DNA of 50,703 bases from Candidatus Eisenbacteria bacterium (GTDB taxonomy: Bacteria > Eisenbacteria > RBG-16-71-46 > SZUA-252): NCBI GenBank assembly GCA_005893275.1, contig VBOW01000025.1:1-50703 (forward strand), written 5' to 3'. The notes beneath the pieces were generated by a model, which did no database searches, was not told the origin of the DNA, and worked only from the letters and a program-made list of their open reading frames with translations. Position numbers and translations under genes: made by a program. Position 1 is the first letter of the stretch. Every line of letters starts with the position of its first letter. Positions 2,080 through 43,261 of this stretch are shown here, piece by piece.

Positions 2080-4158
2080 ATGACCTTCCCCGGAATCATT
2101 CTCTATGCCCTGATTGCGCTCGTGCCGGCCGTTTTCTATCGTGGAACGACCGAGGTCTTCGAGTTTCCCAAGACCGAGCTCCTCGCAACGGGCGCCCTCA
2201 TCCTGAGCGGAATCTACGCGGCGGGCCAGGTCGCGCGCGCCCGGGCCGCGGGCGCTCGGGCATGGCTCGCGGCGCTGCCCGAGCGTGCCGTAGCCCGCGC
2301 CAGGCGCGATCCACTCGGCGCGGCGATCTCCCTTTTCCTCCTGTCCGCCGTTCTCTCGGCGGTCGTATCCATTCGTCGTGACGTGAGCCTCTTCGGGGCT
2401 CATGAGAGCGAGGCGGGCCTCAAGACGGCATTCGCTACGGCGGTGGTCTACTTCGCTTCCCGGTCGCTCGGCACCGACGCGCGGCACCTCGACCGGATCG
2501 CGGGCGCGGCGGCGGCGGCGCTCGCGATCGCGGTGTCGTACGCGCTCCTCCAGCTCATCGGGCTCGATCCCTTCGAGTGGACCCGCAGCGCGACGCTCGG
2601 CGGTCTTCGCCGCGCGCCGGGAACGCTCGGCCACGCGAATCACCTCGGCGCGTGGATCGCGATGACCCTTCCCCTCCTCGCGTGGCTCATCTCTCGGGGG
2701 AAATCGTGGAGCGGACGGCTCCCCTGGATCGTGCTCGGGGTCGCATCTCTCCCGGTTCTGGCCGCCACGCTGTCGCGGGGATCCTGGGTCGCGTGCGCCG
2801 CGGGGGGGGTGGCCTCCGCGGTCGTCGCCTGGGCGGCGCGCCGGAAAGGGGCCAAGGGGGGCCGATGGCGCCTCGTTTTCGTGGCGGTCGCGCTCGGGGC
2901 CGCCGCATTCATGGCGCCGCTCTTGACCCCGCTTCGCCCGGAGCTTCTCCTTCGTTTTCGCCAGATCACGGACGTGAGAGCCCCCTCGACCCAGTCGCGG
3001 GTTCACCTCTGGCGTGCGGGCATCCGGATGGCGGCGGATCATCCGGTCCTCGGCGTGGGCACGGACGCCTACCTCGCGGCCTTTCCCCGCTATCGCACTC
3101 CCGAGTACTGGCGGATCGAGTGGAACGGGCTTTCGGCCAAAGCCCATAACGAGCTGATTCAGATCGCGGCGACCCAGGGACTCCTGGGGCTCTTCGGGTG
3201 CTCTCTCGTGATCCTCCTCGCGGGCCGGGCCGTCCTGCGTGCCTCGCGTCACCCCGACGCGACGATCCGGTCGGGAGCGGCCGCGGCGGCGGGAACGCTC
3301 GTCGCCTTTGCCGTACAGGATCTCGCCAGCTTCACCGTGTCTTCGACGGGAGTCCTGGCGGCCGCGGTGGCGGGATGGGCGTCGGGAAACGCCGGGGTCC
3401 CGGCGCAGGATCCCTCGTCGCGGGACGCCCGAGGCGCGCCGGCCCATGCGATCGGTCTCGGTGCCGCCGCGGCTGTCTGGGCGTTCCTCGTGCTCTTTCC
3501 GTGGCTCGCAGACACCGCCGCGGCTCCCGGGATGCGGTTCCCGATGGCGTCGCCGGAACGCGCCGGGACTCTGCGCCGTGCCGCGTCCCTCGCGCCGTGG
3601 GACGGCCGCTACGCGACGGAGCTGGGCCGCACGCTCTTGGCTCAGGCCTTTGCCGTTCCGGACTCAACCCAGCGGCAGGAAGGGCTTGCGCTCGCCTGCG
3701 CGGCGCTGGAGCGCGCGGCCCAGATCGCGCCGCGAGAGGGAGAGCTTCACGCCCTCCTCGCGCGCACCATTGCGGCGCAAGCGCCTGCCTCCGACGACGG
3801 CCCCCACCTCGACCGCGTGCGCTCAGAATTCGCCAGAGCGATCGCGCTCGAGCCCGAGAACGCGAACGTGCTCGAGCTGGCCGCGCAGGGCTATCTCGAC
3901 CTGGGCCTCACGGGGGAGGCGCGCGCGGCGGCCCTGCGGTGCGCGGCGCTCTTCCCGGACTACGCCATGCCGATCTCGGATCTGGGAGTCGCCTCGCTCC
4001 TCGAGGGGCGGCCGGATGCGGCCGCAGATACCCTGACGCTTGCTCTTCAGCGGAACTGGCATGGAGAGGAAGGGGCGGCGATGGCCGCGAAGAGCAACTA
4101 CGTCGCGGCCCTGCGTGAGCTGAGATTGCGGGATCTCATGAAAGGGAAGAAGAGGTGA
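2080..4158 (+). CDS. O-antigen-ligase-like polytopic membrane protein with C-terminal TPR region
   Basis: A 692-residue protein with about ten hydrophobic segments up to roughly residue 500, then a soluble alpha-helical region (530-692) with TPR-like repeats. The central part matches the Wzy_C/O-antigen ligase family: LGHANHLGAWIAM (183-195), SRGSW (232-236), SRVHLWRAG (306-314) and HNELIQIAATQGLLG (356-370), the last on the usual large periplasmic loop. Such proteins transfer or polymerise undecaprenyl-linked glycans, or glycosylate proteins (PglL-like). The fused TPRs suggest partner binding. It is one of few plus-strand genes and diverges from the OmpA lipoprotein. ATG 2080 was chosen because the protein then begins at its first membrane helix; ATG 2047 (MVSQMLDSPPP) is an in-frame alternative. 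The substrate is unknown. Confidence 0.82.
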   Translation: MTFPGIILYALIALVPAVFYRGTTEVFEFPKTELLATGALILSGIYAAGQVARARAAGARAWLAALPERAVARARRDPLGAAISLFLLSAVLSAVVSIRRDVSLFGAHESEAGLKTAFATAVVYFASRSLGTDARHLDRIAGAAAAALAIAVSYALLQLIGLDPFEWTRSATLGGLRRAPGTLGHANHLGAWIAMTLPLLAWLISRGKSWSGRLPWIVLGVASLPVLAATLSRGSWVACAAGGVASAVVAWAARRKGAKGGRWRLVFVAVALGAAAFMAPLLTPLRPELLLRFRQITDVRAPSTQSRVHLWRAGIRMAADHPVLGVGTDAYLAAFPRYRTPEYWRIEWNGLSAKAHNELIQIAATQGLLGLFGCSLVILLAGRAVLRASRHPDATIRSGAAAAAGTLVAFAVQDLASFTVSSTGVLAAAVAGWASGNAGVPAQDPSSRDARGAPAHAIGLGAAAAVWAFLVLFPWLADTAAAPGMRFPMASPERAGTLRRAASLAPWDGRYATELGRTLLAQAFAVPDSTQRQEGLALACAALERAAQIAPREGELHALLARTIAAQAPASDDGPHLDRVRSEFARAIALEPENANVLELAAQGYLDLGLTGEARAAALRCAALFPDYAMPISDLGVASLLEGRPDAAADTLTLALQRNWHGEEGAAMAAKSNYVAALRELRLRDLMKGKKR

Positions 4159-4190
4159 GACCCACGCGGTCCGAGTCCCGCCACGGGAGG

Positions 4191-5219
4191 TCAGTGCACC
4201 GACGTGGATTCGGTCGTGTCCGAGTCGATGAGCTGGCGGATCCGTTCGCGGGAAAGCCCGAACTGCTCCCCCGCCTCGGCGAGGGTGTGCATCTTGTCAT
4301 CGTAGAACCCGTAGCGCAGACGAAGGATCGCCTCTTCACGCCCGGAGAGCCGCTTCAGAAGCTCGTCGAGGTGCTGGTTTCGCATTTGCATCTCGACCAT
4401 CTGGTCGATCGAAGGCTGCTGCTCGAGGGCCTCGCTGTCGATCAGGCCGTGGTACGCATCGCCACCCAAATCGACGTCGAGCGTGCGGATCGCGTGGATG
4501 AGCGTCCGCAGACGGTTCGCGCGCGTGCTCGGGAGCCCCAGCTCCCGGGCGATCTCGAGCACTTCGGGCCGGCGGTGGAGCTCCCTCTCGAGCCTGCGCT
4601 CCGTCGCGACGTACCGGCGCACCATCTGGAGGACGTGGATCGGGATCCGCACCGTTCGCGCCTGGTTCGCCACACCCCGCGCGAGCGCCTGCCGGATCCA
4701 CCAGGTCGCGTACGTGCTGAAATGGACGCCGCGGTCCACGTCGTACCGGTCCACGGCGGCGATGAGCCCGACGTTTCCCTCTTCGATGAGATCCAGGAAT
4801 TCCACCCCGCGGTTGCGATAGCTCCTCGCGATGGAAACGACGAGCCTGAGGTAGGCGAGGATGAGCGCCTTCCGCGCGTTTTCGTCCCCTCCGCGCATCG
4901 CGGTCCAGAGCTCCTGCTCGTTCTCCCGGCGGAGAAGGGGGTAGCGCTGGATCTCGGTCAGGTAGCGGCGTTCGATGTCGGTGATCGAGTGATCGACGCT
5001 GGGCACGGGATCGGGATCGGACCCCGGGTCCACGCTGTCTTCGGGAAAACGGACGCCCCGGAGGCGGGCCTCGGCGAGGAAGGTGTCGAACGCGACCGGG
5101 TCGAAGTCGGGCGCGTGGAGGAGCGTGTCGATCTCCTCCGCCTCGAGCGAGCCCCGTTCCAGGCCACGCCGCATCGCCGCGGTGAGATCCGCTACAAATC
5201 CGTCCATCTCCTCTCGCAT
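4191..5219 (-). CDS. Sigma-70 family RNA polymerase sigma factor (group 1/2, RpoD/RpoS-like)
   Basis: A 342-residue primary-type sigma factor. Residues 5-60 are acidic and helical and resemble region 1.1. Region 1.2 spans about 80-115. Region 2 (116-185) carries FLDLIEEGNVGLIAAVDRYD and FSTYATWWIRQAL, which bind and melt the -10 element. Region 3 is about 190-270 and region 4 about 285-332, with FGLSRERIRQ as the -35 recognition helix. Unusually, the protein stops soon after that helix (LIDSDTTESTSVH) and lacks the usual EAxALRKLR terminal helix. It lies downstream of acyP, and surE and pcm are a little further upstream, recalling surE-pcm-nlpD-rpoS. With no other sigma factor in view, housekeeping versus stationary-phase role cannot be settled. 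The AGAGGA motif sits very close to the start codon. Confidence 0.92.
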   Translation of the reverse strand: MREEMDGFVADLTAAMRRGLERGSLEAEEIDTLLHAPDFDPVAFDTFLAEARLRGVRFPEDSVDPGSDPDPVPSVDHSITDIERRYLTEIQRYPLLRRENEQELWTAMRGGDENARKALILAYLRLVVSIARSYRNRGVEFLDLIEEGNVGLIAAVDRYDVDRGVHFSTYATWWIRQALARGVANQARTVRIPIHVLQMVRRYVATERRLERELHRRPEVLEIARELGLPSTRANRLRTLIHAIRTLDVDLGGDAYHGLIDSEALEQQPSIDQMVEMQMRNQHLDELLKRLSGREEAILRLRYGFYDDKMHTLAEAGEQFGLSRERIRQLIDSDTTESTSVH

Positions 5220-31035: not shown

Positions 31036-32904
31036 TCAAAAATCGGTTGCCGCGTCCCCGGTCTCCTCGGCCTCGACCGTGACGGGTTCCTCGGTCGAGG
31101 ACTCCGCGGACGGACTCGGCTTGAACTTGGTCTGGAACTCGGCCTGGACCGGCTGAGGTTGGTCGGCCAGCCACGCGCGCACGCTGAGAATGATCCGATG
31201 CGCCTGCGTGTCCACGCGCGTGACCTTGAGGTTCAGGTCATCCCCCATCGTGAAGCTGTCCGCCGGCTTCTTGAGCCCCTCCACTCCCAGCTGGGAGAGC
31301 GGGATGAAGCCCTCGAGCCCTTCCTCCAAGTCCACGATCACGCCGCGGTCCAGGAGGCGGACCACCTTCCCCTTCACGATCAGGTCCGGGATGTATTTTT
31401 CGGCGAGGGTGGGCCACGGATCTTCGCTCACCTGCTTCAAGCCCAGGGAAATCCTCCGGGCATCCTTGTCGATCGAGAGGACCACCACGTCGACCTTGTC
31501 CCCTTTCTTCAATACTTCGCTGGGGTGCACGACGCGTCGGGTCCAGGACATGTCGCTGATGTGCACGAGACCGTCGATCCCCTCCTCGATCTCGACGAAG
31601 GCGCCGAAATTCGTCAGGTTCCGGACCTTTCCGGCGAGCTTGGTGCCGATCGGGAACCGCTGGTCGAGGGTGAGCCACGGATCCGGCTCGGTCTGCTTCA
31701 GGCCGAGCGAGATCTTCTCGTTCTCCTTGTCGATCTTGAGAATGACCGCCTCGATTTGATCGCCGATCGCGACGACCTTCGAAGGATGTCGCACGTGGCG
31801 TGTCCAGGACATCTCCGAGATATGGACGAGCCCCTCGATTCCCTTCTCCAGCTCCACGAAGGCGCCGTAGTCGGTGATCGAGACCACCTTCCCCTTGACC
31901 TTCTGGGCGACCTGATAGCGCTTTTCGACGTCCTCCCACGGGTAGGGCGTGAGCTGTTTCATGCCGAGCGAGATCCGTTCTTTCTCCGGATCGAACGAGA
32001 GGACCTTCACCTTCACCTTCTCGCCGATCGAGACCAGCTCGGACGGGTGGCTCACGCGTCCCCAGGACATGTCGGTGATGTGCAGCAGGCCGTCGATGCC
32101 TCCCAAGTCCACGAAGGCGCCGAAATCGGTGATGTTCTTCACCACACCCTCACGAACCTGGTCCTTCGCCAGCTCCTGGATGATTTCGCTCTTTTGCTTG
32201 GCTCGATGCTCCTCGAGGACGGCGCGCCGGGAGACGACGATGTTCCGGCGCCTCTTGTTGAGCTTGATGATCTTGAACTCCATTCCCTGACCGATCAGGG
32301 AGTCCACGTTCTGAACCTGCCGGAGCGCGATCTGCGACCCGGGAAGGAACGCCTCGACCCCGTAGAGATCGACCACGACGCCGCCCTTGATCTTCCGCAC
32401 CAGCTTGCCTTCCACGAGCTGCCCTTGATCCGCGGCGGTTTTCACGCGGTCCCACACCTTGACGAAGTCGGCCCGCTGCTTCGAGAGCACCACGAGGCCG
32501 TCCTGATTCTCAGTTTTCTCGAGGAAGACCTCGATCTCGTCCCCGACCTTCACTCCTTCGAGATCCGGAAACTCTTCGACAGGAATGACGCCTTCGGACT
32601 TGAACCCGACGTCCACCGTGACTTCCTTGTCGTCGATCTTGAGGACGCGGCCGCGGACGATTTCGCCTTCTTCCAGGTCCTTGAGCGAGTCCTCGTAGAG
32701 CTGGAGCCATTGCCCCATCATGCTCGCGGAGTCCTCGTCGGTATCGAGCTCCTGGGTGCCGACGGCGGTGATCGCGCCCTCGTCTCCGCCTTCGTCGTGG
32801 ATGAGCCTCGTCTGCGGTTTGCGCTTACGGGGCTTCGTCTCGACCTCGGCGTCGTCCGCCGACTCGTCCTTTACGTCCACATCCTCTTCATGACGTCGAA
32901 CCAT
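31036..32904 (-). CDS. rpsA: 30S ribosomal protein S1
   Basis: A 622-residue mRNA-binding ribosomal protein with six S1 (OB-fold) repeats. Typical repeat cores are TDFGAFVDLGGIDGLLHITD, TDYGAFVELEKGIEGLVHIS and TNFGAFVEIEEGIDGLVHIS. An acidic and Lys-rich N-terminal tail of about 65 residues precedes repeat 1, and a short acidic C-terminal tail ends the protein. Length exceeds the E. coli S1 (557). ATG 32904 with AGGGGGA upstream was chosen; a TTG at 32970 overlapping the ispH stop is an alternative. It ends the aromatic/cmk/ispH run, as in the known cmk-rpsA linkage. Confidence 0.96.
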   Translation of the reverse strand: MVRRHEEDVDVKDESADDAEVETKPRKRKPQTRLIHDEGGDEGAITAVGTQELDTDEDSASMMGQWLQLYEDSLKDLEEGEIVRGRVLKIDDKEVTVDVGFKSEGVIPVEEFPDLEGVKVGDEIEVFLEKTENQDGLVVLSKQRADFVKVWDRVKTAADQGQLVEGKLVRKIKGGVVVDLYGVEAFLPGSQIALRQVQNVDSLIGQGMEFKIIKLNKRRRNIVVSRRAVLEEHRAKQKSEIIQELAKDQVREGVVKNITDFGAFVDLGGIDGLLHITDMSWGRVSHPSELVSIGEKVKVKVLSFDPEKERISLGMKQLTPYPWEDVEKRYQVAQKVKGKVVSITDYGAFVELEKGIEGLVHISEMSWTRHVRHPSKVVAIGDQIEAVILKIDKENEKISLGLKQTEPDPWLTLDQRFPIGTKLAGKVRNLTNFGAFVEIEEGIDGLVHISDMSWTRRVVHPSEVLKKGDKVDVVVLSIDKDARRISLGLKQVSEDPWPTLAEKYIPDLIVKGKVVRLLDRGVIVDLEEGLEGFIPLSQLGVEGLKKPADSFTMGDDLNLKVTRVDTQAHRIILSVRAWLADQPQPVQAEFQTKFKPSPSAESSTEEPVTVEAEETGDAATDF

Positions 32905-32966
32905 TCGTTGGTGTTCCCCCTTGCCTCTTCTATGAAATTCGGCCGTGAAGGCCGGTGGTGCCTGAT

Positions 32967-33824
32967 TCAAGCCCCCGCGGGGCTCGGCTCGATGCGGGTG
33001 ATCCGGTCCACAACGTCGGCGATGACCTCATCGGGCGTCGATGCCCCCGCCGAGACGCCGACCCGGGACAATCCCTGGAACCAATCCTCCTGGATTTCGT
33101 CCGCGGACTCGATCTGGAGCACCCGCGGATTCACCTTGCGGCAGACCTCCGCGAGCTGGGCCGTGTTCGCGCTCTGACGTCCGCCCACGATCACCATCGC
33201 TTCAACTTCCGACGAAAGCTCGATGGCAGTCTTCTGCATCGAGGTCGTCGCCCCGCAAAGCGTGTTGAACACGCGTACTTCCTTGCCGCGCTTCAGAAGC
33301 GCGCCCACGATTTCCTGGACGTGCCCGATCGAATGGGTTGTCTGGAACACCACCCCCATTCTCGGGATGAACTTGAGCGCCTCCGCCTCGGCGATGGTGT
33401 TGATCACGATCGCCCGATTCTCCGTATACGCCACGACGCCGATCACTTCCGGATGATTTTTGTCCCCGATCATGACGACCTTGTAGCCGTCGGCGATGAG
33501 CTTGGCCGCATATTGCTGCGCCTTGGTAACGAACGGACACGTGGTATCCACAACCTTGAGGCCCCGCTCCGCCGCGTCCCGCTTCAGCTCCGGGCCCACG
33601 CCGTGGGACCGGATGATGACGGTGTCCTCGGGGTCCACGCTCTCGAGATCCCCCACCACCTCGAGCCCGCGCTTGCGAAACGAGCTCACGACCTGTGGAT
33701 TGTGGATCAGGGATCCGAGCGATTTGACGCGGGATCCCGCCGCATCCATGGTGTCGTTCGCCATCTTGATCGCACGTTTCACCCCGAAGCAGAAACCGGC
33801 GTTATCCGCGACGATCACGTCCAT
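32967..33824 (-). CDS. ispH: 4-hydroxy-3-methylbut-2-enyl diphosphate reductase IspH
   Basis: A 285-residue iron-sulphur enzyme making IPP and DMAPP, the last step of the MEP isoprenoid pathway. The three cluster cysteines lie in NAGFCFGVKRAI (C12), VDTTCPFVTKAQ and FNTLCGATTSMQ. VYTENRAIV and QTTHSIGHVQEIV fall where the family's substrate loops do. ATG 33824 has AGGAG seven bases upstream. Its start overlaps the cmk-plsC fusion by 23 bases. Placement between cmk and rpsA is known in other bacteria. Confidence 0.96.
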   Translation of the reverse strand: MDVIVADNAGFCFGVKRAIKMANDTMDAAGSRVKSLGSLIHNPQVVSSFRKRGLEVVGDLESVDPEDTVIIRSHGVGPELKRDAAERGLKVVDTTCPFVTKAQQYAAKLIADGYKVVMIGDKNHPEVIGVVAYTENRAIVINTIAEAEALKFIPRMGVVFQTTHSIGHVQEIVGALLKRGKEVRVFNTLCGATTSMQKTAIELSSEVEAMVIVGGRQSANTAQLAEVCRKVNPRVLQIESADEIQEDWFQGLSRVGVSAGASTPDEVIADVVDRITRIEPSPAGA

Positions 33825-35103
33825 GTCGTTTCTCCTGGTCCGCGCGCAGCGCCCCGATCATGTCCATGACGTGCCGGGCGAAGTCGCGCACTTCCTCCCG
33901 CTCGGGATGACCCGAACGGGGGGGCATCACGGGCGAGCCGAATGTGATCCGGATCGGAACCTGCCGCTTGATCGAGCGGCGGATTTGATTTGAGCCTGTG
34001 ACGCACGCGGGCAAAACCGGGGACCGTGTAACCGCCGAGAGACGTCCCACCCCGGCCCGGGGGGGTAACAGCGTACCGCTCTTGTTCCGCGTCCCTTCCG
34101 GAAAGATCAGGACGGCGCCTCCCGCGGAGAGCACCTCCTCTGCCCCGCGGAGCCCGCTGCGGGCCTGCGGCCCCCGTTGAATTGGGATGGCATTATACGA
34201 CCGGAGGAGGGCTCCGAACAGAGGATTATGGAATAATTCCGCCTTCGCCACGAAGTGGACCGGCCTTGGGATGGAGGAGCCGACCAAGGGCGGGTCCCAA
34301 AAGGAGATGTGGTTGCACGCCACGATCAGCGGGCCCTTACGTGGAATTCGCTCCAGCCCCTCCACGTGGAAGTCGAGGAAGACCCGCGCGAAGGCCTGCG
34401 CGAATCCAGCCCCGAACCGATAGACGAGGCTCGCCCGCTCCGGGCGCGCGCGCGCCAGCTCGGCCCAGCGGCTGGCCAGCGCGATCTGCTCCTCGGGGCC
34501 GATGCAGGTGGTCTCGAGGAGGATCGCGTCGGGAGCCCGCACGAGCGGGCTCGCCACGCGCTCGGTGTCCCGCCGGTCCCGCTCGCGGATCGCCTCGACG
34601 ATGGCGTTCTGGTCGGGGCTCTGCCCCTTCGCCCGAAGCTCGAGGAAGCGCCGCTCGGCCCGCGCTTCGGCGCTTGCCGAGATGAAGATCTTGAGATCCG
34701 CGTCCGGGAAGACCACGGTCCCGATGTCCCGCCCTTCCATCACGAGCCCGGGGTCCGCCCGGAACGAGCGCTGGAGCGAGACCAGCTTTTGGCGAAGCCG
34801 GGGATGGAGCGCCACCCGCGACGCGGCTTCGCCGGCCTCCGTGGTCCGGATCGTATCCTCGATCGACACGCCGTCCACGAGCATCCCGTCGGTGCTCGGC
34901 TGAAACCGCGCCCGACCGACCATCTCGACGAGCGCCGCCTCGTCCTCGAGGGAGATCCCGTGCCGGAGGGCGAGCAGCGCGACGCTCCGATACATTGCTC
35001 CGGAATCCACGTGCACGAGGCCCAGATGCCTCGCGACCCCGCGGGCGGTCGTGCTCTTCCCCGCCCCCGCGGGTCCGTCGATCGCCAGCACGAAGGGTTT
35101 CAA
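33802..35103 (-). CDS. Fused cytidylate kinase / 1-acylglycerol-3-phosphate acyltransferase
   Basis: A 433-residue two-domain protein. Residues 1-220 are Cmk, which phosphorylates CMP and dCMP: P-loop GPAGAGKSTTARG, DSGAMYR and MEGRDIGTVVFPDADLKIF are all intact. Residues about 235-425 are PlsC-like: the HX4D motif NHISFWD (His265, Asp270) and FPEGTRNKSG (334 on) are intact, so it may make phosphatidic acid. No stop or ribosome site separates the domains, and the linker is short. Start TTG 35103 overlaps the aroA stop by four bases (TTGA). Separate adjacent cmk and plsC genes are known, so fusion is a plausible derivative. Both activities are inferred. Confidence 0.9.
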   Translation of the reverse strand: MKPFVLAIDGPAGAGKSTTARGVARHLGLVHVDSGAMYRSVALLALRHGISLEDEAALVEMVGRARFQPSTDGMLVDGVSIEDTIRTTEAGEAASRVALHPRLRQKLVSLQRSFRADPGLVMEGRDIGTVVFPDADLKIFISASAEARAERRFLELRAKGQSPDQNAIVEAIRERDRRDTERVASPLVRAPDAILLETTCIGPEEQIALASRWAELARARPERASLVYRFGAGFAQAFARVFLDFHVEGLERIPRKGPLIVACNHISFWDPPLVGSSIPRPVHFVAKAELFHNPLFGALLRSYNAIPIQRGPQARSGLRGAEEVLSAGGAVLIFPEGTRNKSGTLLPPRAGVGRLSAVTRSPVLPACVTGSNQIRRSIKRQVPIRITFGSPVMPPRSGHPEREEVRDFARHVMDMIGALRADQEKRHGRDRRG

Positions 35104-36383
35104 CGCACGAGGCTCCGCAGCCGGCTCAGAAATCCCGGATCGGAGACGCGCGAGGACTCGGCGCCCAGCAGGGTGACTCCTTCCCGCGCCACGAGCCCTG
35201 CGACGAGAAATGCCATCGCGATGCGGTGGTCCCCGGCCGCATCGACGGTGCCGCCGCGGAAGCGCCCTCCCCTTCCATGGATCGTCCAGCCATCCGGGTG
35301 CACATCCACGTCGACCCCGATCGCTTGAAGGCCGGCGGCGACCGCGCCGATCCGGTCCGATTCCTTGACCCGGAGCTCTTCCGCGCCCCGCACGACGGTC
35401 TTTCCTTCCGCGAAGGCCGCGAGAATGGCCACGAGGGGCAGCTCGTCGATCAATCCCGGCGCGCCGTCGGGAGCGAGACGCACCCCGCGGAGCGCGCCGG
35501 AGCGCACGCGCAGGTCGGCCACCGGCTCCTCCGAGGCGAGACGCTCGTTTCCGCGTTCCACTCGCGCCCCGATCCGCGCGAGGTGATCCAGGAAGGCGGT
35601 CCGCGTCGGATTGACGCCGACGCTCCGGATCGTGACGTCCGATCCGCGCACGATGGCCGCGGCGGCCAGAAGGAACGCCGCCGCGGAGAAATCCCCGGGG
35701 ACCTCGATCTCGGTCGCGTGGAGCGAGGCAGGACCACGGACGCGCGCGGCGCCCCCGTCCCGCTCGACGGGGGCGCCGAAGAGCGGCAGCATGCGCTCGG
35801 TGTGGTCCCGTGTCGGAGTCGATTCGCGCACCGAGGTCACACCGTGCGCCTGCACGCCGGCGAGGAGCACGGCGCTCTTGACCTGCGAGCTTGGGACCGC
35901 GGTCAGAACGGCGGCGCCTTGAAGCATCCGGCCGCGCACGACGACCGGCGGATATCGGTCCCCTTGCCTCGCGGTGAGCTCGGCGCCCAGGGCCCGCAGC
36001 GGCTCGATCACCCGCGCGACGGGGCGTCTCCGCAGGGAGGAATCGCCGGTCAGGATCGAGAGAAAGGGCTGGGCGGCGAGAACTCCGGTCGCAAGCCTCA
36101 GCGCCGTCCCGGAGTTTCGAGCGTCGAGAACCCGGTCGCTCTCGCGGAGCTCTCCCCCGCGGATCAGGACACCCTCCTTGGCCGAGGCGGTGACGCGGGC
36201 GCCGAGCTGCCGCGCGATTCCGAGCGCGGCGGCGGCGTCCGCCCCCGGGTTCGCCCCGCGAATCCGCGTCACGCCGGGCGCCAGCGCTCCGAGGAGGATG
36301 CCCCGCTGCGTGATTGATTTATCCCCGGGAACCCGGGTCTCGCCGCGGAGCGGGCCCCGCGGCACGATGCGGGCCCGGGTCAC
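35100..36383 (-). CDS. aroA: 3-phosphoshikimate 1-carboxyvinyltransferase (EPSP synthase)
   Basis: A 427-residue enzyme joining shikimate 3-phosphate and phosphoenolpyruvate in the shikimate pathway. Motifs: VPGDKSITQRGILLG with the substrate-binding Lys (the usual SHR reads TQR), NSGTALRLATG, VPSSQVKSAVLLAG, DELPLVAILAAFAEG and ELRVKESDR. The NSGT and TQR variants suggest a class II-like enzyme, often less sensitive to glyphosate; that is inference. GTG 36383 overlaps the tyrA stop (GTGA). Order pheA-hisC-tyrA-aroA-cmk matches the aromatic supraoperon. Confidence 0.95.
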   Translation of the reverse strand: MTRARIVPRGPLRGETRVPGDKSITQRGILLGALAPGVTRIRGANPGADAAAALGIARQLGARVTASAKEGVLIRGGELRESDRVLDARNSGTALRLATGVLAAQPFLSILTGDSSLRRRPVARVIEPLRALGAELTARQGDRYPPVVVRGRMLQGAAVLTAVPSSQVKSAVLLAGVQAHGVTSVRESTPTRDHTERMLPLFGAPVERDGGAARVRGPASLHATEIEVPGDFSAAAFLLAAAAIVRGSDVTIRSVGVNPTRTAFLDHLARIGARVERGNERLASEEPVADLRVRSGALRGVRLAPDGAPGLIDELPLVAILAAFAEGKTVVRGAEELRVKESDRIGAVAAGLQAIGVDVDVHPDGWTIHGRGGRFRGGTVDAAGDHRIAMAFLVAGLVAREGVTLLGAESSRVSDPGFLSRLRSLVR

Positions 36384-37234
36384 GGAGCGATCTCCCTGCG
36401 AAACTCGCGCGCCTCCTCGAGGAGCGTCCGGAGCCCGGGGTCCTTGCGCTCGATGGCGTGCCGCAATCCACGAATCTCCCGCTCGAGAAGCTCGAGGGCG
36501 GGCGTGAGCTTCTCCGCGTTCAAGGTGAGGATCTCGAACCAGAGATCGGCCGGAGACCCGGCGAGTCTGGACATGTCCTTGAGCCCCGGACCCGCGCCCT
36601 GGGCGAGCATGCCGGTCAGGTTCCCCGTCCGGCGGAGCGTCCTCACGAGCGCCGTCGAGACCACTTGGGGGAGGTGGCTCGTGAGCGCGACGAGCGCGTC
36701 GTGGATCGCCGGGGCCATCGCGGACGGGCGCGCTCCGATCGAAGCCCAGAGCGCGCCCACGCCTTCGGCCGGAGATCCCGGATCGAGCGGCGCCCCGACG
36801 AGGACCGGCGCTCCCCGGTAAAGATCCGCGCGCGCCGCCCGGATCCCCCCCTGCTCCGAGCCCCGCAGAGGGTGCGAGCCCACGAACCGCCGCCTTCGGT
36901 CAGGCTTGGCCGAGACCGCGGTCAGCACGGGAAGCATCACGCTCGAGAGGTCGGTGAGGACCGCGTCGCGCGGCATCGCATCCGCCAGGCTCGGCACGAT
37001 CGCCACCGCGACCCGAGGCGGGACGGCGGTGACCACGATCTCTGTATCGGGATCCGGTCTTCCGGAATCGGGCAAGAGCGCGTCCACCGCCCCGCGTTCG
37101 CGCGCCAGGCGCGCGGTCTCGGGATCGGGGTCGTAGCCCAGCACCCGCGGCGGATCGTTCCCCGCGCGGAGCGCCAAGCCGAGCGATCCCCCGATCAGCC
37201 CAAGCCCGTGAATCGCGATGACCCGCGGCGTCAC
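36380..37234 (-). CDS. tyrA: Prephenate dehydrogenase
   Basis: A 284-residue NAD(P)-dependent enzyme that oxidatively decarboxylates prephenate (or arogenate) towards tyrosine. The nucleotide-binding motif is GLGLIGGSLGLAL, and the catalytic region has GSHPLRGSEQGG, equivalent to HPMAGxE. The second half is the helical dimerisation domain (ALTSHLPQVVSTAL). No chorismate mutase or ACT domain is attached. GTG 37234 was chosen because it overlaps the hisC stop by four bases (GTGA) and precedes the Rossmann strand. Confidence 0.93.
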   Translation of the reverse strand: MTPRVIAIHGLGLIGGSLGLALRAGNDPPRVLGYDPDPETARLARERGAVDALLPDSGRPDPDTEIVVTAVPPRVAVAIVPSLADAMPRDAVLTDLSSVMLPVLTAVSAKPDRRRRFVGSHPLRGSEQGGIRAARADLYRGAPVLVGAPLDPGSPAEGVGALWASIGARPSAMAPAIHDALVALTSHLPQVVSTALVRTLRRTGNLTGMLAQGAGPGLKDMSRLAGSPADLWFEILTLNAEKLTPALELLEREIRGLRHAIERKDPGLRTLLEEAREFRREIAP

Positions 37235-38331
37235 AGGATCCGGCGCAGTCCGTCGAGGAGCCTCTCCAGCTCGGCCCGGGTCCCGGCGCTGATCCGCGCG
37301 TACTCGGGCGGGAGCCCGAACGAAGTCACGGGGCGGACGATGATCCCCAGGCGCTCGAGCTTGCGCGCGGCCTCGACGGCGGAGCCGGGGAAGCGGGCGA
37401 GGACGAAATTCGCCCACGTCGGCGTGAGCGTGAGGCCGAGCCCGGGAAGCTCCGAGAAGAGGAGCTTCTTCCCCGCCTCGTTCACCGCGCGGCTGCGCTC
37501 CACCTGGGCCCTGTCCCGCAAGCTGGCGCGCGCGGCGGCCTGGCCGACGCTCGTCGCGTTGAAGGGAAGCCTCACCCGGTGGACGAGCGACGTCAGCTCC
37601 GGAGAAAAAAAGCCGTATCCGACCCGAAGTCCCGCGAGCGCATAGATCTTCGAAAACGTCCGGAGCACCGCGACCCGCTTCCCCTTCCGCAAGTAATCCA
37701 GCCCGTTCGGATACTCGGGATCGGTGACGTATTCGAAGTACGCTTCGTCCAGAATCGTGAGAACGTGATCCGGCACTCGATCGAAATAGCGGTCGAGGGC
37801 GCGCCGGGGAACCATCGTGCCCGTCGGGTTGTCGGGGTTGGAGAAATAGACGAGCCTCGTGCGCTCGTTGACCGCGGCGAGCATGGCGTCCGGGTCGTGG
37901 AAGAGCTCGCGCCCCGGCACGCGGACGAGCTTTCCCCCGGCCACGCGGACGGCGATCGCGAACATGACGAACGCGGGGTCCGACATCACGGCCTCGTCCC
38001 CCGGGCCGAGATGAATGCGGCAGAGGACGTCGATGAGATCGTTCGAGCCCGATCCGACCGCGATCTGTTCGATGGGGATGCCCCAGAATTCGGAGAGCGC
38101 CTCTCGCAGGTAATAGGAGCTGCCGTCCGGGTAGCGGTTCACGCCGCGGATCGCCTCGGCCATCGCTTCGATCGCGAGCGGCGAGGGGCCGAGCGGATTT
38201 TCGTTTGAGGCGAGCTTGATGGCGCCGGAGATATGGAGCTCGCGCTCCAGCTCCTCGACGGGCTTGCCGGGGACGTAGGGCTCAAGGGAGCGAACTTCAG
38301 GCCGGACCGGTTCCATCGCGCGGATCGACAT
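37231..38331 (-). CDS. hisC: Histidinol-phosphate / aromatic aminotransferase
   Basis: A 366-residue PLP-dependent class I aminotransferase of the HisC family. LASNENPLGPS starts the substrate arm, YFSNPDNPTGTM and LDEAYFEYV hold the PLP-stacking residues, and RTFSKIYALAGLRVGYGF contains the Schiff-base Lys. Located between pheA and tyrA, it probably transaminates phenylpyruvate, 4-hydroxyphenylpyruvate or prephenate, as in the HisHb members of the aromatic supraoperon, and may also serve histidine. ATG 38331 has AGAGGA six bases upstream. Confidence 0.93.
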   Translation of the reverse strand: MSIRAMEPVRPEVRSLEPYVPGKPVEELERELHISGAIKLASNENPLGPSPLAIEAMAEAIRGVNRYPDGSSYYLREALSEFWGIPIEQIAVGSGSNDLIDVLCRIHLGPGDEAVMSDPAFVMFAIAVRVAGGKLVRVPGRELFHDPDAMLAAVNERTRLVYFSNPDNPTGTMVPRRALDRYFDRVPDHVLTILDEAYFEYVTDPEYPNGLDYLRKGKRVAVLRTFSKIYALAGLRVGYGFFSPELTSLVHRVRLPFNATSVGQAAARASLRDRAQVERSRAVNEAGKKLLFSELPGLGLTLTPTWANFVLARFPGSAVEAARKLERLGIIVRPVTSFGLPPEYARISAGTRAELERLLDGLRRIL

Positions 38332-38376: not shown

Positions 38377-39444
38377 CTAGGGGACTGGATCCGCCGCCGG
38401 GAAGCTCCCGAGGATGCGGTGAAGAAGCGTCGCCGGGCGAATCTCGTCCAACGCGGCGCGAAGCGGCTCCTCGAGCCGGTGACCCGAGAGCTCGAGGAGG
38501 AACAGGTGCTCCCCGGGCCGCCATCGATGGGTCCGCGATTCGATCCAGCCGACGTTGACGTCGTGCGAGGCGAGGCAACGCAGCACTTCGAGAAGGCGCC
38601 CGGGCCGGTTCTCCAGGGAGAGAAGGAGCGCGGTCTTGTCCCTGCCGCTCGGCTTCGATTCCCCGGCACCGAGCACGAGAAATCGGCGGGGCCTGCGGGG
38701 GGCATCTTCGGCCGCGGCATCGAAAACCGGCAGGTGAACGGTCTCCGCGACGATCGGCGGGGCGATGCAAAGCGCTTCCGGATCGAGGGCCGCGCGTCTC
38801 CCCGCCTCGCCGCTTCCCGCGACCGGCTCGATCTCGGTCCCGGAAGGGAGCGAGGCGCGCCAGCGCTGACAGAGGGATAACGCGGCCGGATGCGCATAGA
38901 GGCGCTTGGGCGCCGCCGCGTGGCCCAGCGCCTGGTAACCGGCCCGGTCCACGAACTCCGCGACGATCCGGGCTTCGGCCGTGAGAAAGAGGTCGAATGC
39001 GTCGAAGGCGGGATCTTCCGGATCCCCCTCCAGGGCGAAAACGCCGTACTCGAGACGCTCCGACTCGATCCGTTCCAGGAGCTGCTGCGCCGCCGCGAGC
39101 GGCTCGTACGAGGACGACTTCCCGAACCGGCGCGTGGCCGCTTGGTGCGCGAAGCCGCCCGGCTGACCGAGGTAGCCGATACGAAAATCCCCCTGGATCG
39201 CGCGCGACGCGGACACGACCTCGCGAAAGATCGCCTGGAGCCCGGCCAGCGGAAATTGGCCGCGCTCCTCGCCCGCCAACCGCTCAAAGAGCTCCCTCTC
39301 GCGCGCCGGGTCAAGGGCGGATTCCCCCTCCACGCGCTTTCGTTCCCCGATCGCGGCCACGACTTCGGCCCGCTCGGCCAGGAGCCGTATCAGCTCGCGA
39401 TCGATGCGATCGATCCGCGAACGCAGATCCCCGAGATCAGGCAT
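38377..39444 (-). CDS. pheA: Chorismate mutase fused to a prephenate dehydratase-like domain with ACT (P-protein-like)
   Basis: A 355-residue protein with P-protein layout. Residues 1-84 are an AroQ-type chorismate mutase with intact LRSRIDRIDRELIRLLAER, IGERKR and DPARERELFERL. Residues 87-258 align with prephenate dehydratase but lack its hallmarks: the PIENS/T region reads FALEGDPED, SHPQxxxQC reads AHPAALSLC, and the catalytic TRF motif reads RRF. Residues 271-345 are an ACT domain (ENRPGRLLEVL). Chorismate mutase activity is likely; dehydratase activity is doubtful. ATG 39444 overlaps the rluB end by eight bases. Neighbours hisC, tyrA and aroA support an aromatic role. Confidence 0.88.
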   Translation of the reverse strand: MPDLGDLRSRIDRIDRELIRLLAERAEVVAAIGERKRVEGESALDPARERELFERLAGEERGQFPLAGLQAIFREVVSASRAIQGDFRIGYLGQPGGFAHQAATRRFGKSSSYEPLAAAQQLLERIESERLEYGVFALEGDPEDPAFDAFDLFLTAEARIVAEFVDRAGYQALGHAAAPKRLYAHPAALSLCQRWRASLPSGTEIEPVAGSGEAGRRAALDPEALCIAPPIVAETVHLPVFDAAAEDAPRRPRRFLVLGAGESKPSGRDKTALLLSLENRPGRLLEVLRCLASHDVNVGWIESRTHRWRPGEHLFLLELSGHRLEEPLRAALDEIRPATLLHRILGSFPAADPVP

Positions 39445-40165
39445 GGGACGCCGTCCTGGCCGCGCGCTCGAGCGCGCGGATCTCCGTCCTGGTAAGCGGG
39501 CGTGTTCTGCCCGAAGGGAGGGTCTCGAGCCGGATCGGCCCGAACTGAACGCGCAGGAGGCGGCGGACGTGGAGGCCGGCGGCGCGCGCGAGCAGCCTCA
39601 CCTCGCGTTTCTTTCCTTCGAGGATTTCGACCAGGAGCTTTCCCTGCCCGCGCTCGGCCCCCTCGAGCAGCACACGGCTCGGGACCACCTCCTCCCCTTC
39701 GACGATCGCCCCCTCGCGAAGGCGGCGCATCGTGGGCACGCCGGGCACCGGAACGACCCAAATTCGATAGACTCGCGTGAGCCCGGTCCTGGGATGGAGG
39801 AGCGCCTCCGCAAGCACGCCGTCGTTCGTCAGAAGCAGGAGCCCCTCCGAATGGAGGTCGAGCCGGCCCACCGCGTGGAGCCCGCGCGCGACCCCGCCGA
39901 GGAGCTCGAAGACGGTGGGGCGGCCGCCTTGGCTCCGACGGCTGACCAGGACGCCCGCCGGCTTGTGATAGGCGAGATAGCGGAAGTCGTCGTGCCAGCG
40001 AAGAAGCTTCCCGTCGAGGGTGACGCGATCGCGCTCCGGATCGATGCTCGGGCCCATCCCGGACGGCGGCGCGCCGTTCACGCGGACGCGTCCCTCCCGG
40101 ATCCAGCGGTCCGCCTCGCGCCGGGACCCCGCCCCGGCGCGGGCGAGAAATTGATTAAGCCGCAC
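39437..40165 (-). CDS. rluB: Pseudouridine synthase (RluB/RsuA family)
   Basis: A 242-residue rRNA-modifying enzyme. An S4 RNA-binding domain (residues 1-45) is followed by the catalytic domain with GRLDLHSEGLLLLTNDG, catalytic Asp at 103, and KPAGVLVSRR. The C-terminus carries KKREVRLLARAAGL and RVQFGPIRLETLPSG, typical of RluB. It probably modifies the 23S decoding-adjacent helix. GTG 40165 starts MRLNQFLARAG; the scpB stop is 12 bases upstream. trpS-scpA-scpB-rluB is a widely conserved run. Confidence 0.93.
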   Translation of the reverse strand: MRLNQFLARAGAGSRREADRWIREGRVRVNGAPPSGMGPSIDPERDRVTLDGKLLRWHDDFRYLAYHKPAGVLVSRRSQGGRPTVFELLGGVARGLHAVGRLDLHSEGLLLLTNDGVLAEALLHPRTGLTRVYRIWVVPVPGVPTMRRLREGAIVEGEEVVPSRVLLEGAERGQGKLLVEILEGKKREVRLLARAAGLHVRRLLRVQFGPIRLETLPSGRTRPLTRTEIRALERAARTASHA

Positions 40166-40177
40166 CGTTCCCGGCCG

Positions 40178-40801
40178 TCACACCTCGACCTCGGATTTCG
40201 TCGCCTGCTCCTCCGTCGTGGCCGCTCCGGCTGAAACCGCCTCCCCCTGCTCGGGCTGCTGTTCGCGCTCCTCGAGCAGCGGGGCGACCTCCTTCAGCTC
40301 GGGAAGGTCCGAGAGGTCGTTGATCCCCATGTAGGAGAGAAACTCCGGCGTCGTGGTGTAAAGCAGCGGCCGTCCGACCCCTTTCGAACGGCCTTTGATC
40401 GTGACGAGATTCCGCTCGAGAAGCGTGTGAAGCACCCCGGCGGTATCCACCCCGCGTATCGAGTCGATCTCCACTTTGGTGATCGGCTGGCGGTAGGCGA
40501 CGATCGCGAGCGACTCCAGAGCCGGCTTGCTCAACCGGATCTTTCGCCTGGAGCGGAGCATCCGCTCGACCCAGGGGGAGCACTCCTTCCGCGAGAGAAT
40601 CTGGAACCCGCCCGCGATCTCATGGAGGATGATTCCGCGTTCCCCGCGTTCGTAGGCCTCGGCCATTTCCGCGAGGAGCGCCCGGACTTCCTGGACGCTC
40701 CGGTCCCCGAGCACCTCGGTCAAGACCTGGAGCCCGACGGGCACGTCGCTCGCGAAGAGCACGGCCTCGAGGATTTGTTTCGCGGTCGGCATGTCGGTCA
40801 T
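40178..40801 (-). CDS. scpB: Segregation and condensation protein B
   Basis: A 207-residue kleisin-interacting protein (tandem winged helices) of the SMC-ScpAB chromosome condensin. Family segments are AKQILEAVLFASD, ERGERGIILHEIAGGFQI, LSKPALESLAIVAYRQP and RSKGVGRPLLYTTTPEFL. The tail is acidic and Glu/Gln-rich. ATG 40801 overlaps the scpA stop by four bases (ATGA); longer in-frame starts lie within scpA. Confidence 0.95.
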   Translation of the reverse strand: MTDMPTAKQILEAVLFASDVPVGLQVLTEVLGDRSVQEVRALLAEMAEAYERGERGIILHEIAGGFQILSRKECSPWVERMLRSRRKIRLSKPALESLAIVAYRQPITKVEIDSIRGVDTAGVLHTLLERNLVTIKGRSKGVGRPLLYTTTPEFLSYMGINDLSDLPELKEVAPLLEEREQQPEQGEAVSAGAATTEEQATKSEVEV

Positions 40802-41619
40802 CCCTCCTCGACAACGATCCGTCGACGGGGTTTCTCCTCCCGCCACGCGATCCAGATCGGTCCGAATAGCTGCTCCTGCGCCACGGTGATCCGTTCCTGT
40901 TTCAGGAGCTCGAGCAATCCCAAAAAGGCCGTGATCTTCTCCAAGCGCGTCAGAAAATGGGAGAGCACTTCCTCAAACAACGCCCGCTTCCTCCGACCCA
41001 GGGAATCGCGAATCACCGCGATCGCCTCCTCCAGGCTGATCGGCTCCGCCGTGATCGTGTGGATGATCGGGGGGGCCTGCCGGTGGAGAACGTTCTTGAG
41101 AGCGTCCAGGAGCCGGTAGAGGCTCACCGGCTGCAGCTCTCCGTCCTGGGGATCCTCGAGCTGCGACGGCGCGCCCCGATCGAAGAGCAGCCGCCGGTCG
41201 CTCTCGAGCTGCTCCAGGTCACGCGCCGCTTCCTTGAAGCGCCGATATTCCAAGAGCTGCCGCATGAGACCTTCGCGCGGATCCTCCTCTTCCTCGTCCG
41301 CGATCGCCGGCGGTAGGAGCATCCGCGCTTTGATGCGCATGAGCGTCGCGGCCATGACGAGGAACTCCCCGGCGACCTCGAGATCCAGCTCCCGCATGAG
41401 CTCCAGAGTCTCCAGATACTCCCGGGTGATGCGGGCGATGGGAATGTCGGAGATCTCGATCTCCTCGCGCTGGATCAAATGGAGCAGGAGATCGAGCGGA
41501 CCTTCGAACGCGGGGAGCTGAACCCGGATCAGGCTCGCGGGCGACGCGACGCCCTCCTCCGTGGCCCCGGGGGCGCGCGCGGCAACGGCGGCCGGGTCGT
41601 TTTTCCGGAATTCGGTCAT
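40798..41619 (-). CDS. scpA: Segregation and condensation protein A
   Basis: A 273-residue kleisin subunit of the SMC condensin. The N-terminal motif FEGPLDLLLHLIQREEIEI is classic ScpA, followed by EYLETLELMRELDLEVAGEFLVMAATLMRIKARMLLP. The C-terminus has the winged-helix region that closes the SMC ring (LFEEVLSHFLTRLEKITAFLGLLELLKQ). ATG 41619 overlaps the trpS stop by four bases (ATGA). It starts close to the family start, so longer frames were rejected. Confidence 0.96.
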   Translation of the reverse strand: MTEFRKNDPAAVAARAPGATEEGVASPASLIRVQLPAFEGPLDLLLHLIQREEIEISDIPIARITREYLETLELMRELDLEVAGEFLVMAATLMRIKARMLLPPAIADEEEEDPREGLMRQLLEYRRFKEAARDLEQLESDRRLLFDRGAPSQLEDPQDGELQPVSLYRLLDALKNVLHRQAPPIIHTITAEPISLEEAIAVIRDSLGRRKRALFEEVLSHFLTRLEKITAFLGLLELLKQERITVAQEQLFGPIWIAWREEKPRRRIVVEEG

Positions 41620-42626
41620 GGAAGCTTCATGGCCTCGCGTACCTCCCTCATGGTCTCCTGCGCGATTTTCCTCGCGCGCTCCTCCCCCATTTTCAACGCC
41701 TCCCGAACCCGTTCGGGGCGCGCTTCCAGCTCGCGGCGCCTCTCCCGGAACGGACGAAGCTGCTCGGCCAGGATCGCAGCCAGGTCCTTCTTGTTCGCGA
41801 CGCACCCCAGCCGGCCCGCGCGGCAGTCGGCTGCGATCTGGGGCGCGTTCGCGGCGTTGAACGCCTGATGGTAAGCGAAGACGACGCATCCTTCCGGATG
41901 GCCGGGATCGTTCGCGCGGATCTTCTTCGGATCGGTGTAGGCGGTCCTCACCTTGGCCGCGATCGTCTCCGGAGAATCCGAAAGATAGATCGCGTTGTCC
42001 AGCGACTTGCTCATCCGCCGGCCGTCGAGCCCGGGGACGCGCGCGAACTGGGTCAGCTTCGGCGCCGGAATCGGGAAGACCTCGCCGTAGAGGCTGTTGA
42101 ATTTGCGCGCGATCTCGCGCGTCATCTCGATGTGGGGCACCTGGTCCTCTCCTACCGGAACGAGGTTGGCTTTGTAGAGCAGAATGTCGGCCGCCTGAAG
42201 CACCGGGTATCCCAAGTGGCCGTAGCTCACCGTTTCTTCCAGGTGGAGGTCCCGAACCTGCTCTTTCACCGTCGGATTCCTCTCGAGGCGGCTCGTCGTC
42301 ACCAGCATCGAGAAAAGCAGGTGTAGCTCCGCGTGCTCCTTGACGTGCGATTGGATGAAAACCGGGCTCTTCTCCGGATCGATTCCGGCCGCGAGCCAGT
42401 CGGTCACCATCTCGAGCGTGTTCGGCCCGATCTCCTCGACGTGCTCGTAGTCGGTCGTCAGGGCGTGCCAGTCGGCCACCATGTGGAGGTTCTCGCAGGT
42501 GCCCTGCAGCTCCACCCAGTTCTGGAGCGCCCCCAGGTAATTTCCCAGGTGGAGCCTCCCCGTGGGGCGCATCCCGCTCAGGATGCGCGGCTTCTTGCCG
42601 CTTCCGGCGGCCTTGGGTTCGATCAG
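41616..42626 (-). CDS. trpS: Tryptophanyl-tRNA synthetase
   Basis: A 336-residue class I aminoacyl-tRNA synthetase charging tRNA-Trp. HIGH-type motif GRLHLGNYLGAL and KMSKS-type motif RRMSKSLDN are present, with LQAADILLYKANLVPVGEDQ in between. The length is usual for the family. The start is odd: the frame upstream of KKPRILSGMRPTG has no ATG, GTG or TTG. CTG at 42626, preceded by AGGGGGAG and overlapping the M50 protease stop (CTGA), is the best candidate; the adjacent ATC is another. A later start at the internal Met would remove conserved residues. Translational coupling to the M50 gene probably supports initiation. Confidence 0.93.
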   Translation of the reverse strand: MIEPKAAGSGKKPRILSGMRPTGRLHLGNYLGALQNWVELQGTCENLHMVADWHALTTDYEHVEEIGPNTLEMVTDWLAAGIDPEKSPVFIQSHVKEHAELHLLFSMLVTTSRLERNPTVKEQVRDLHLEETVSYGHLGYPVLQAADILLYKANLVPVGEDQVPHIEMTREIARKFNSLYGEVFPIPAPKLTQFARVPGLDGRRMSKSLDNAIYLSDSPETIAAKVRTAYTDPKKIRANDPGHPEGCVVFAYHQAFNAANAPQIAADCRAGRLGCVANKKDLAAILAEQLRPFRERRRELEARPERVREALKMGEERARKIAQETMREVREAMKLP

Positions 42627-43261
42627 AGCACTCCCCCTGTGAAGAATCCTCCGAGAATGTAGACGAACGGCGTGACGATGTAGCTGAAGAGGTTCACCCC
42701 GGTCGTCATTCCGAGCACGACGATGCCCAGGAGCACGAACGGCCCCACCCGGTCGAACTCGCGATACCGCTCGGCCCACTCGCGGCTCAAGAGCCCCGTC
42801 AGAATCCGGGATCCGTCCAGCGGGAAGATCGGGATCAGGTTGAACGCCGCGAGCCCGAGATTGACGACGACGCTTCCTTCGGCCATGTAGAGCAGGAGCC
42901 TCTCCATCGTGCCGGCCATGTGGACCGGCGCGGCGAATCGGACGATCGTTCCGAAAAGGAACGCCAGAATCAGGTTCGAGATCGGCCCGGCGAGCGCGAT
43001 CCACATCATGTCCCGGCGGGGGTGCCCGAGGTAGCGCTCGTCGACGGGGACCGGCTTCGCCCAGCCGATCCTCTGCGTCAGGACGAACACGATTGTCCCG
43101 GTCACGTCCAGGTGCGCGATCGGGTTGAGCGTCAGGCGCCCCAGCAACCTCGCCGTCGGGTCGCCGAGACGGGTGGCAACGTAGGCGTGGCTGTATTCGT
43201 GAAAGGTGAGGGCGAAGAGAAGCGGCGGAATCATCAGGAGGATGCCCGTTACATCGCCCAC
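42623..43261 (-). CDS. M50-family (site-2-protease-like) membrane metalloprotease
   Basis: A 212-residue protein with four or five transmembrane segments. The zinc-binding HEYSH motif is at residues 21-25 in the first hydrophobic segment, and NLIPIFPLDGSRI (141-153) supplies the metal-binding Asp149. No PDZ domain is present, so it is the short YwhC/SpoIVFB-like class rather than RseP. The target is unknown. It starts with GTG. It lies upstream of trpS, an arrangement seen in other bacteria, and its stop overlaps the putative trpS start. Confidence 0.88.
   Translation of the reverse strand: MGDVTGILLMIPPLLFALTFHEYSHAYVATRLGDPTARLLGRLTLNPIAHLDVTGTIVFVLTQRIGWAKPVPVDERYLGHPRRDMMWIALAGPISNLILAFLFGTIVRFAAPVHMAGTMERLLLYMAEGSVVVNLGLAAFNLIPIFPLDGSRILTGLLSREWAERYREFDRVGPFVLLGIVVLGMTTGVNLFSYIVTPFVYILGGFFTGGVL

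Follow-up and report, generated by a model that had tools for sequence, protein, structure and literature searches.

Does a gene with the make-up of a bifunctional pheA still encode both of its enzymes? This question is raised by an open reading frame (ORF) on the minus strand of contig VBOW01000025.1 of a Candidatus Eisenbacteria bacterium, at positions 38377-39444 of the window (the whole stretch of DNA analysed, 50,703 nucleotides). The ORF codes for a 355-residue protein with chorismate mutase (CM), prephenate dehydratase (PDT) and ACT domains fused in this order; the plus-strand frame over the same interval contains a stop. Judging from sequence comparisons, the mutase appears to be kept and the dehydratase to have lost its active site, as suspected in a first-pass annotation of the same DNA.

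The AroQ-type CM domain comprises residues 4-84 (39193-39435), with a Pfam CM_2 match at residues 7-84 (E 3.6e-20, 72 bits). It is followed by a PDT fold devoid of catalytic residues, delimited by Pfam, alignment and model (residues 88-258, 38671-39183). The Pfam PDT match (residues 89-260, E 7.7e-20) reaches 71.9 bits against a cut-off of 25.2. The ACT domain (residues 270-349, 38398-38637) was placed from Pfam, alignment and model; its Pfam match (residues 272-333, E 9e-5, 22.6 bits) falls under the cut-off of 27.

The protein was aligned with E. coli PheA (from NC_000913.3) and 18 homologues from related genomes; the alignment includes 13 canonical relatives, eight from the same class and five from other lineages. 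E. coli PDT positions N160, Q215 and T278 correspond to G140 (PIEN motif, codon 39025-39027), L191 (SHPQ..QC motif, codon 38872-38874) and R253 (catalytic Thr of the TRF motif, codon 38686-38688), respectively. With E. coli PheA and the 13 canonical relatives as reference, VVPIENT is replaced by VFALEGD, YSHPQPFQQC by YAHPAALSLC and NFTRF by RPRRF. The motif losses described in the first-pass annotation (PIENS/T, SHPQ...QC and the Thr of TRF) are thus all real. Profile-profile alignment (HHalign; 270 columns, probability 100%) restores no Thr either, R253 falling on the catalytic position. Alignment error as the cause of these losses is ruled out by the two kinds of alignment, as far as sequence can do so. 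In EqPdt, replacement of the TRF Thr by Ala (T223A) abolishes PDT activity (PMC11980547), and the TRF triad is described as critical to substrate binding and catalysis (PMC10845154).

In the CM domain, all eight residues of the AroQ catalytic set (R11, R28, K39, D48, R51, E52, S84 and Q88 in E. coli numbering) are kept. The earlier statement that both CM and ACT are intact therefore holds for CM but not for the ligand motif of ACT, where ESRT stands in place of ESRP and relatives display ENRA or EPKS. The other ACT motif reads GRLL instead of GALV.

Five further genomes from the class of the window organism encode this protein as well, namely G004 (contig 72), G014 (contig 8), G020, G026 and G031; the window genome is designated G000. 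The G020 copy runs off its contig, and the other five members are full-length. In all six genomes the gene directly follows scpA-scpB-rluB and, where the contig continues, precedes hisC or aroA. A contig-end CM fragment was detected at the same post-rluB slot in G022. N160 is lost in all six members and Q215 in five of them. T278 is replaced by Arg in 5/5 full-length members, whereas Thr is present in 13/13 canonical relatives. Because the PDT domains of these five members share only 26-67% mutual identity, their common Arg is more than chance. Invariant columns of the domain further include P249, L154 and L258, which, like R253, are not the usual canonical letters. In the phylogenetic tree, the six members are monophyletic, sharing a single origin, and are set apart from the 13 canonical proteins by a branch with 100/100 support. 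Homologues in related genomes had been named as a check on the changes; they do share them, in one clade and in one slot, and a loss common to six genomes of one class points to an old, maintained change. Search of GTDB contigs with the window protein (P0001) yielded no named relatives, and search with a two-sequence alignment yielded only a canonical Kiritimatiellae PDT.

Further, we estimated nonsynonymous (dN) and synonymous (dS) divergence of individual domains. The values are rough, as they come from a basic Nei-Gojobori count for a single pair of proteins from two genera (G000 and G004). The PDT domain shows 67% identity, dN 0.26 and dS 1.01 (dN/dS about 0.26), the ACT domain 70% identity, dN 0.23 and dS 0.97, and the CM domain 54% identity, dN 0.38 and dS 0.72. 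These estimates indicate that the PDT domain is under purifying selection between genera. We rejected a pseudogene on the grounds of the intact ORFs, dN/dS and the losses held in common. An AlphaFold model, built from just six sequences, is confident in the PDT-ACT part (pLDDT, predicted local distance difference test, about 90), and the CM part is poorly modelled. Foldseek search with this model retrieved 6vh5 and 2qmx, two PDTs with bound L-Phe, at a TM-score (template modelling score) of 0.84 on target. The PDT-ACT fold is thus predicted to be intact.

If the dehydratase is dead, phenylalanine would need another one, as the first-pass annotation had argued. This agrees with G004 and G014, each of which also encodes a complete canonical CM-PDT on another contig, but not with G000. 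The window genome (2.88 Mb, 95 contigs, 99.65% complete) contains the PDT and CM_2 domains only once each, in the altered pheA. Genome search revealed neither a second PDT nor a second AroQ CM (AroH-type CMs, PF07736, were not searched for). One prephenate dehydrogenase (TyrA), chorismate synthase and two 3-deoxy-D-arabino-heptulosonate 7-phosphate (DAHP) synthases are present. No candidate for cyclohexadienyl dehydratase (PheC) emerged from an SBP_bac_3 search: the sole protein of this family adjoins genes for an ATP-binding cassette (ABC) permease and an ATPase and most resembles amino-acid-binding proteins; for these reasons it is taken as part of a transporter. Matches to indolepyruvate ferredoxin oxidoreductase, which would indicate the phenylacetate route, were all under the cut-off. 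On paper, then, the tyrosine route of G000 looks complete and the phenylalanine route does not. Phenylalanine auxotrophy or uncatalysed conversion consequently seems more likely in this organism than another dehydratase.

Among the remaining relatives, G026 and G020 resemble G000 in having kept chorismate synthase with no other PDT found, and G022 has a canonical PDT-ACT with a partial CM at a contig edge. The altered pheA is gone from its slot in six genomes belonging to the family of the window organism (G001, G002, G005, G006, G007 and G008), with rluB and hisC, tyrA or aroA still in place; in most of these, no AroQ CM or PDT was found. The phenylalanine/tyrosine branch seems to be disappearing from this lineage gene by gene, and against this background a phenylalanine-auxotrophic window organism is plausible. 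Two of these genomes, G001 (contig 100, L083) and G008 (contig 72, L084), retain hisC-tyrA beside rluB, so that the dehydrogenase is apparently left without a source of substrate; no AroQ CM was found in either assembly (91% and 78% complete, respectively). In G005, the only AroQ CM is fused to DAHP synthase (L087 2790-3809, minus strand).

The most economical reading of these data would be a single-function, ACT-bearing CM of a tyrosine operon. We consider it probable that the protein feeds tyrosine synthesis in this way, that its PDT fold is kept as scaffold or sensor, and that phenylalanine is imported or formed non-enzymatically. The gene would descend from an aroQ-pheA fusion within an operon, and loss of its dehydratase would predate the divergence of the present carrier families. 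Acting as CM only, the protein would supply prephenate to TyrA and the HisC-type aminotransferase, that is, to the tyrosine branch. Its pseudo-PDT-ACT part may persist as a scaffold for dimerisation and as an allosteric sensor, whose ligand might be an aromatic amino acid and whose specificity might have changed. In G004 and G014, phenylalanine would be made by the second, canonical PheA. Prephenate is converted to phenylpyruvate even without enzyme, above all in acid; the window organism most likely imports phenylalanine or may rely on this slow reaction. CM activity, tyrosine supply, the scaffold or regulatory role of PDT-ACT and phenylalanine import are what we infer from sequence. Within this limit, conservation, synteny and genome content lend good support to the proposal of the first-pass annotation that a supraoperon pheA with a dead PDT is kept as a regulated CM. 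Some points weigh against the single-function reading. The ligand motif of ACT is altered, so that regulation by an amino acid can only be presumed. The CM is the fastest-changing domain between G000 and G004, which is unexpected if it carries the sole function. CMs of AroH type lay outside the search of G000. Finally, a second PDT could sit in assembly gaps of G000 or of G026 (98% complete).

The strong conservation of the middle domain between genera, together with its clade-specific invariant residues R253, P249, L154 and L258, would also suit the gain of a new activity or ligand, a new reaction having been the other proposal of the first-pass annotation. The Arg253-Arg254 pair might then bind an anionic substrate or effector, for instance to sense prephenate or chorismate or to catalyse a reaction resembling that of prephenate decarboxylases. 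The prephenate decarboxylase BacA is probably akin to the PDT family and has no PDT chemistry. Another PDT-fold protein with a different activity is the GqqA acylase (PMC8192741). No specialised-pathway genes lie nearby, however, the operon being a housekeeping one, and many other PDT positions vary freely inside the clade. We therefore regard a new activity or ligand as unlikely. Hardly better are the chances of the pseudo-dehydratase as a new module, in which the two arginines would form a new anion site and either a domain binding prephenate, chorismate or tyrosine would gate the CM or prephenate would enter a new reaction.

A prephenate (or arogenate) dehydratase still active through a rearranged active site would explain why G000, G026 and G020 combine chorismate synthase with no other PDT, and it agrees with the predicted preservation of the fold. 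Yet N160, Q215 and T278 are all lost, the TRF Thr is essential where tested (PMC11980547) and canonical PheA coexists with the altered protein in G004 and G014. Absence of a PDT from the window genome is moreover unsurprising, because phenylalanine/tyrosine genes are altogether gone from the majority of relatives in the family. Such an enzyme is improbable. Least probable of all is a functionless relic on its way out as the family sheds this branch: it would fit the six same-family genomes with an empty post-rluB slot, most of them without AroQ CM or PDT, but is opposed by frames that stay open in all six genomes, an undamaged set of CM residues, a dN/dS ratio clearly under 1 for each domain and fixation of Arg at the Thr position.

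The altered pheA is embedded in the supraoperon scpA-scpB-rluB-pheA-hisC-tyrA-aroA-cmk-ispH-rpsA, all of it on the minus strand. Upstream of pheA lie scpA (ORF 40798-41889, start probably internal), scpB (40178-40846) and the conserved neighbour encoding an rluB/rsuA-type pseudouridine synthase (39437-40165), the end of which is overlapped by the pheA ATG by 8 bases. Downstream, the hisC-type aminotransferase (37231-38331) scores over the TIGR01141 cut-off and presumably acts on aromatic substrates. It is followed by tyrA (prephenate/arogenate dehydrogenase, 36380-37234, likely GTG start at 37234), aroA (5-enolpyruvylshikimate-3-phosphate synthase, 35100-36383), cmk (33802-35103), ispH/lytB (32967-33824) and rpsA with its S1 repeats (31036-32970). 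The cytidylate kinase encoded by cmk is fused to a PlsC-type acyltransferase in a single ORF of 433 amino acids; one ORF is also found in G004 and G001, and seemingly two in G014 and G026. Ahead of scpA-scpB-rluB-pheA, a gene for a tryptophanyl/tyrosyl-type tRNA synthetase (41616-43004) is conserved in G001, G004, G008 and G026.

Comparison with known systems places the window protein close to the P-protein (AroQ-PheA, as in E. coli), with which it shares the AroQ CM with its catalytic residues and the PDT fold. It differs from it by missing PDT catalytic residues and an altered ESRP, and scores only 70 bits with the E. coli-type P-protein model (cut-off 577). Since the Pfam PDT match passes its cut-off, automatic annotation can still name the protein a prephenate dehydratase and predict phenylalanine synthesis where there is probably none. 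A literature search revealed no paper on dead PDT domains. In the enteric lineage, an aroQ-pheA is described whose pheA domain turned into a pseudogene and whose AroQ was kept (PMC1173090, Table 6, event 16); the window protein, in contrast, belongs to a conserved clade apparently under purifying selection. BacA, compared by its description, also acts on prephenate, but belongs to an antibiotic gene cluster, is 204 amino acids long and does not have the CM-PDT-ACT architecture (PMC9147277); no BacA-type secondary-metabolite cluster is present in the window operon.

The remaining comparison is with PRK06034 proteins of alphaproteobacteria (NCBIfam, labelled "hypothetical protein" or "chorismate mutase"), which likewise consist of a CM and a C-terminus not recognised as PDT and are encoded upstream of hisC. 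They differ in length (about 290 amino acids) and in having no Pfam PDT or ACT match, and the window protein stays below their cut-off (52.0 bits against 349, NF004698). The Methylobacterium bullatum member (451 bits, cut-off 413) is encoded upstream of hisC and tyrA in a genome that also has a separate canonical PDT, and the Azospirillum gene lies directly upstream of hisC. The C-terminus of PRK06034 bears a faint trace of the PDT-domain start (39 columns, 31% identity, pairwise E 1.4e-4, probability 52%). Alphaproteobacterial CMs of this type, with a possibly PDT-derived C-terminus, are located at L131 (about 3845-4708), L133 (2998-3894) and L134 (2998-3870). PRK06034, which may be homologous, looks like the same fate taken further in an unrelated group. 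The altered pheA would offer an example from nature of how a bifunctional enzyme loses one active site and retains its fold and regulator; intact and dead homologues occur side by side in the G004 and G014 genomes, and there is an apparent alphaproteobacterial parallel at the same operon position.
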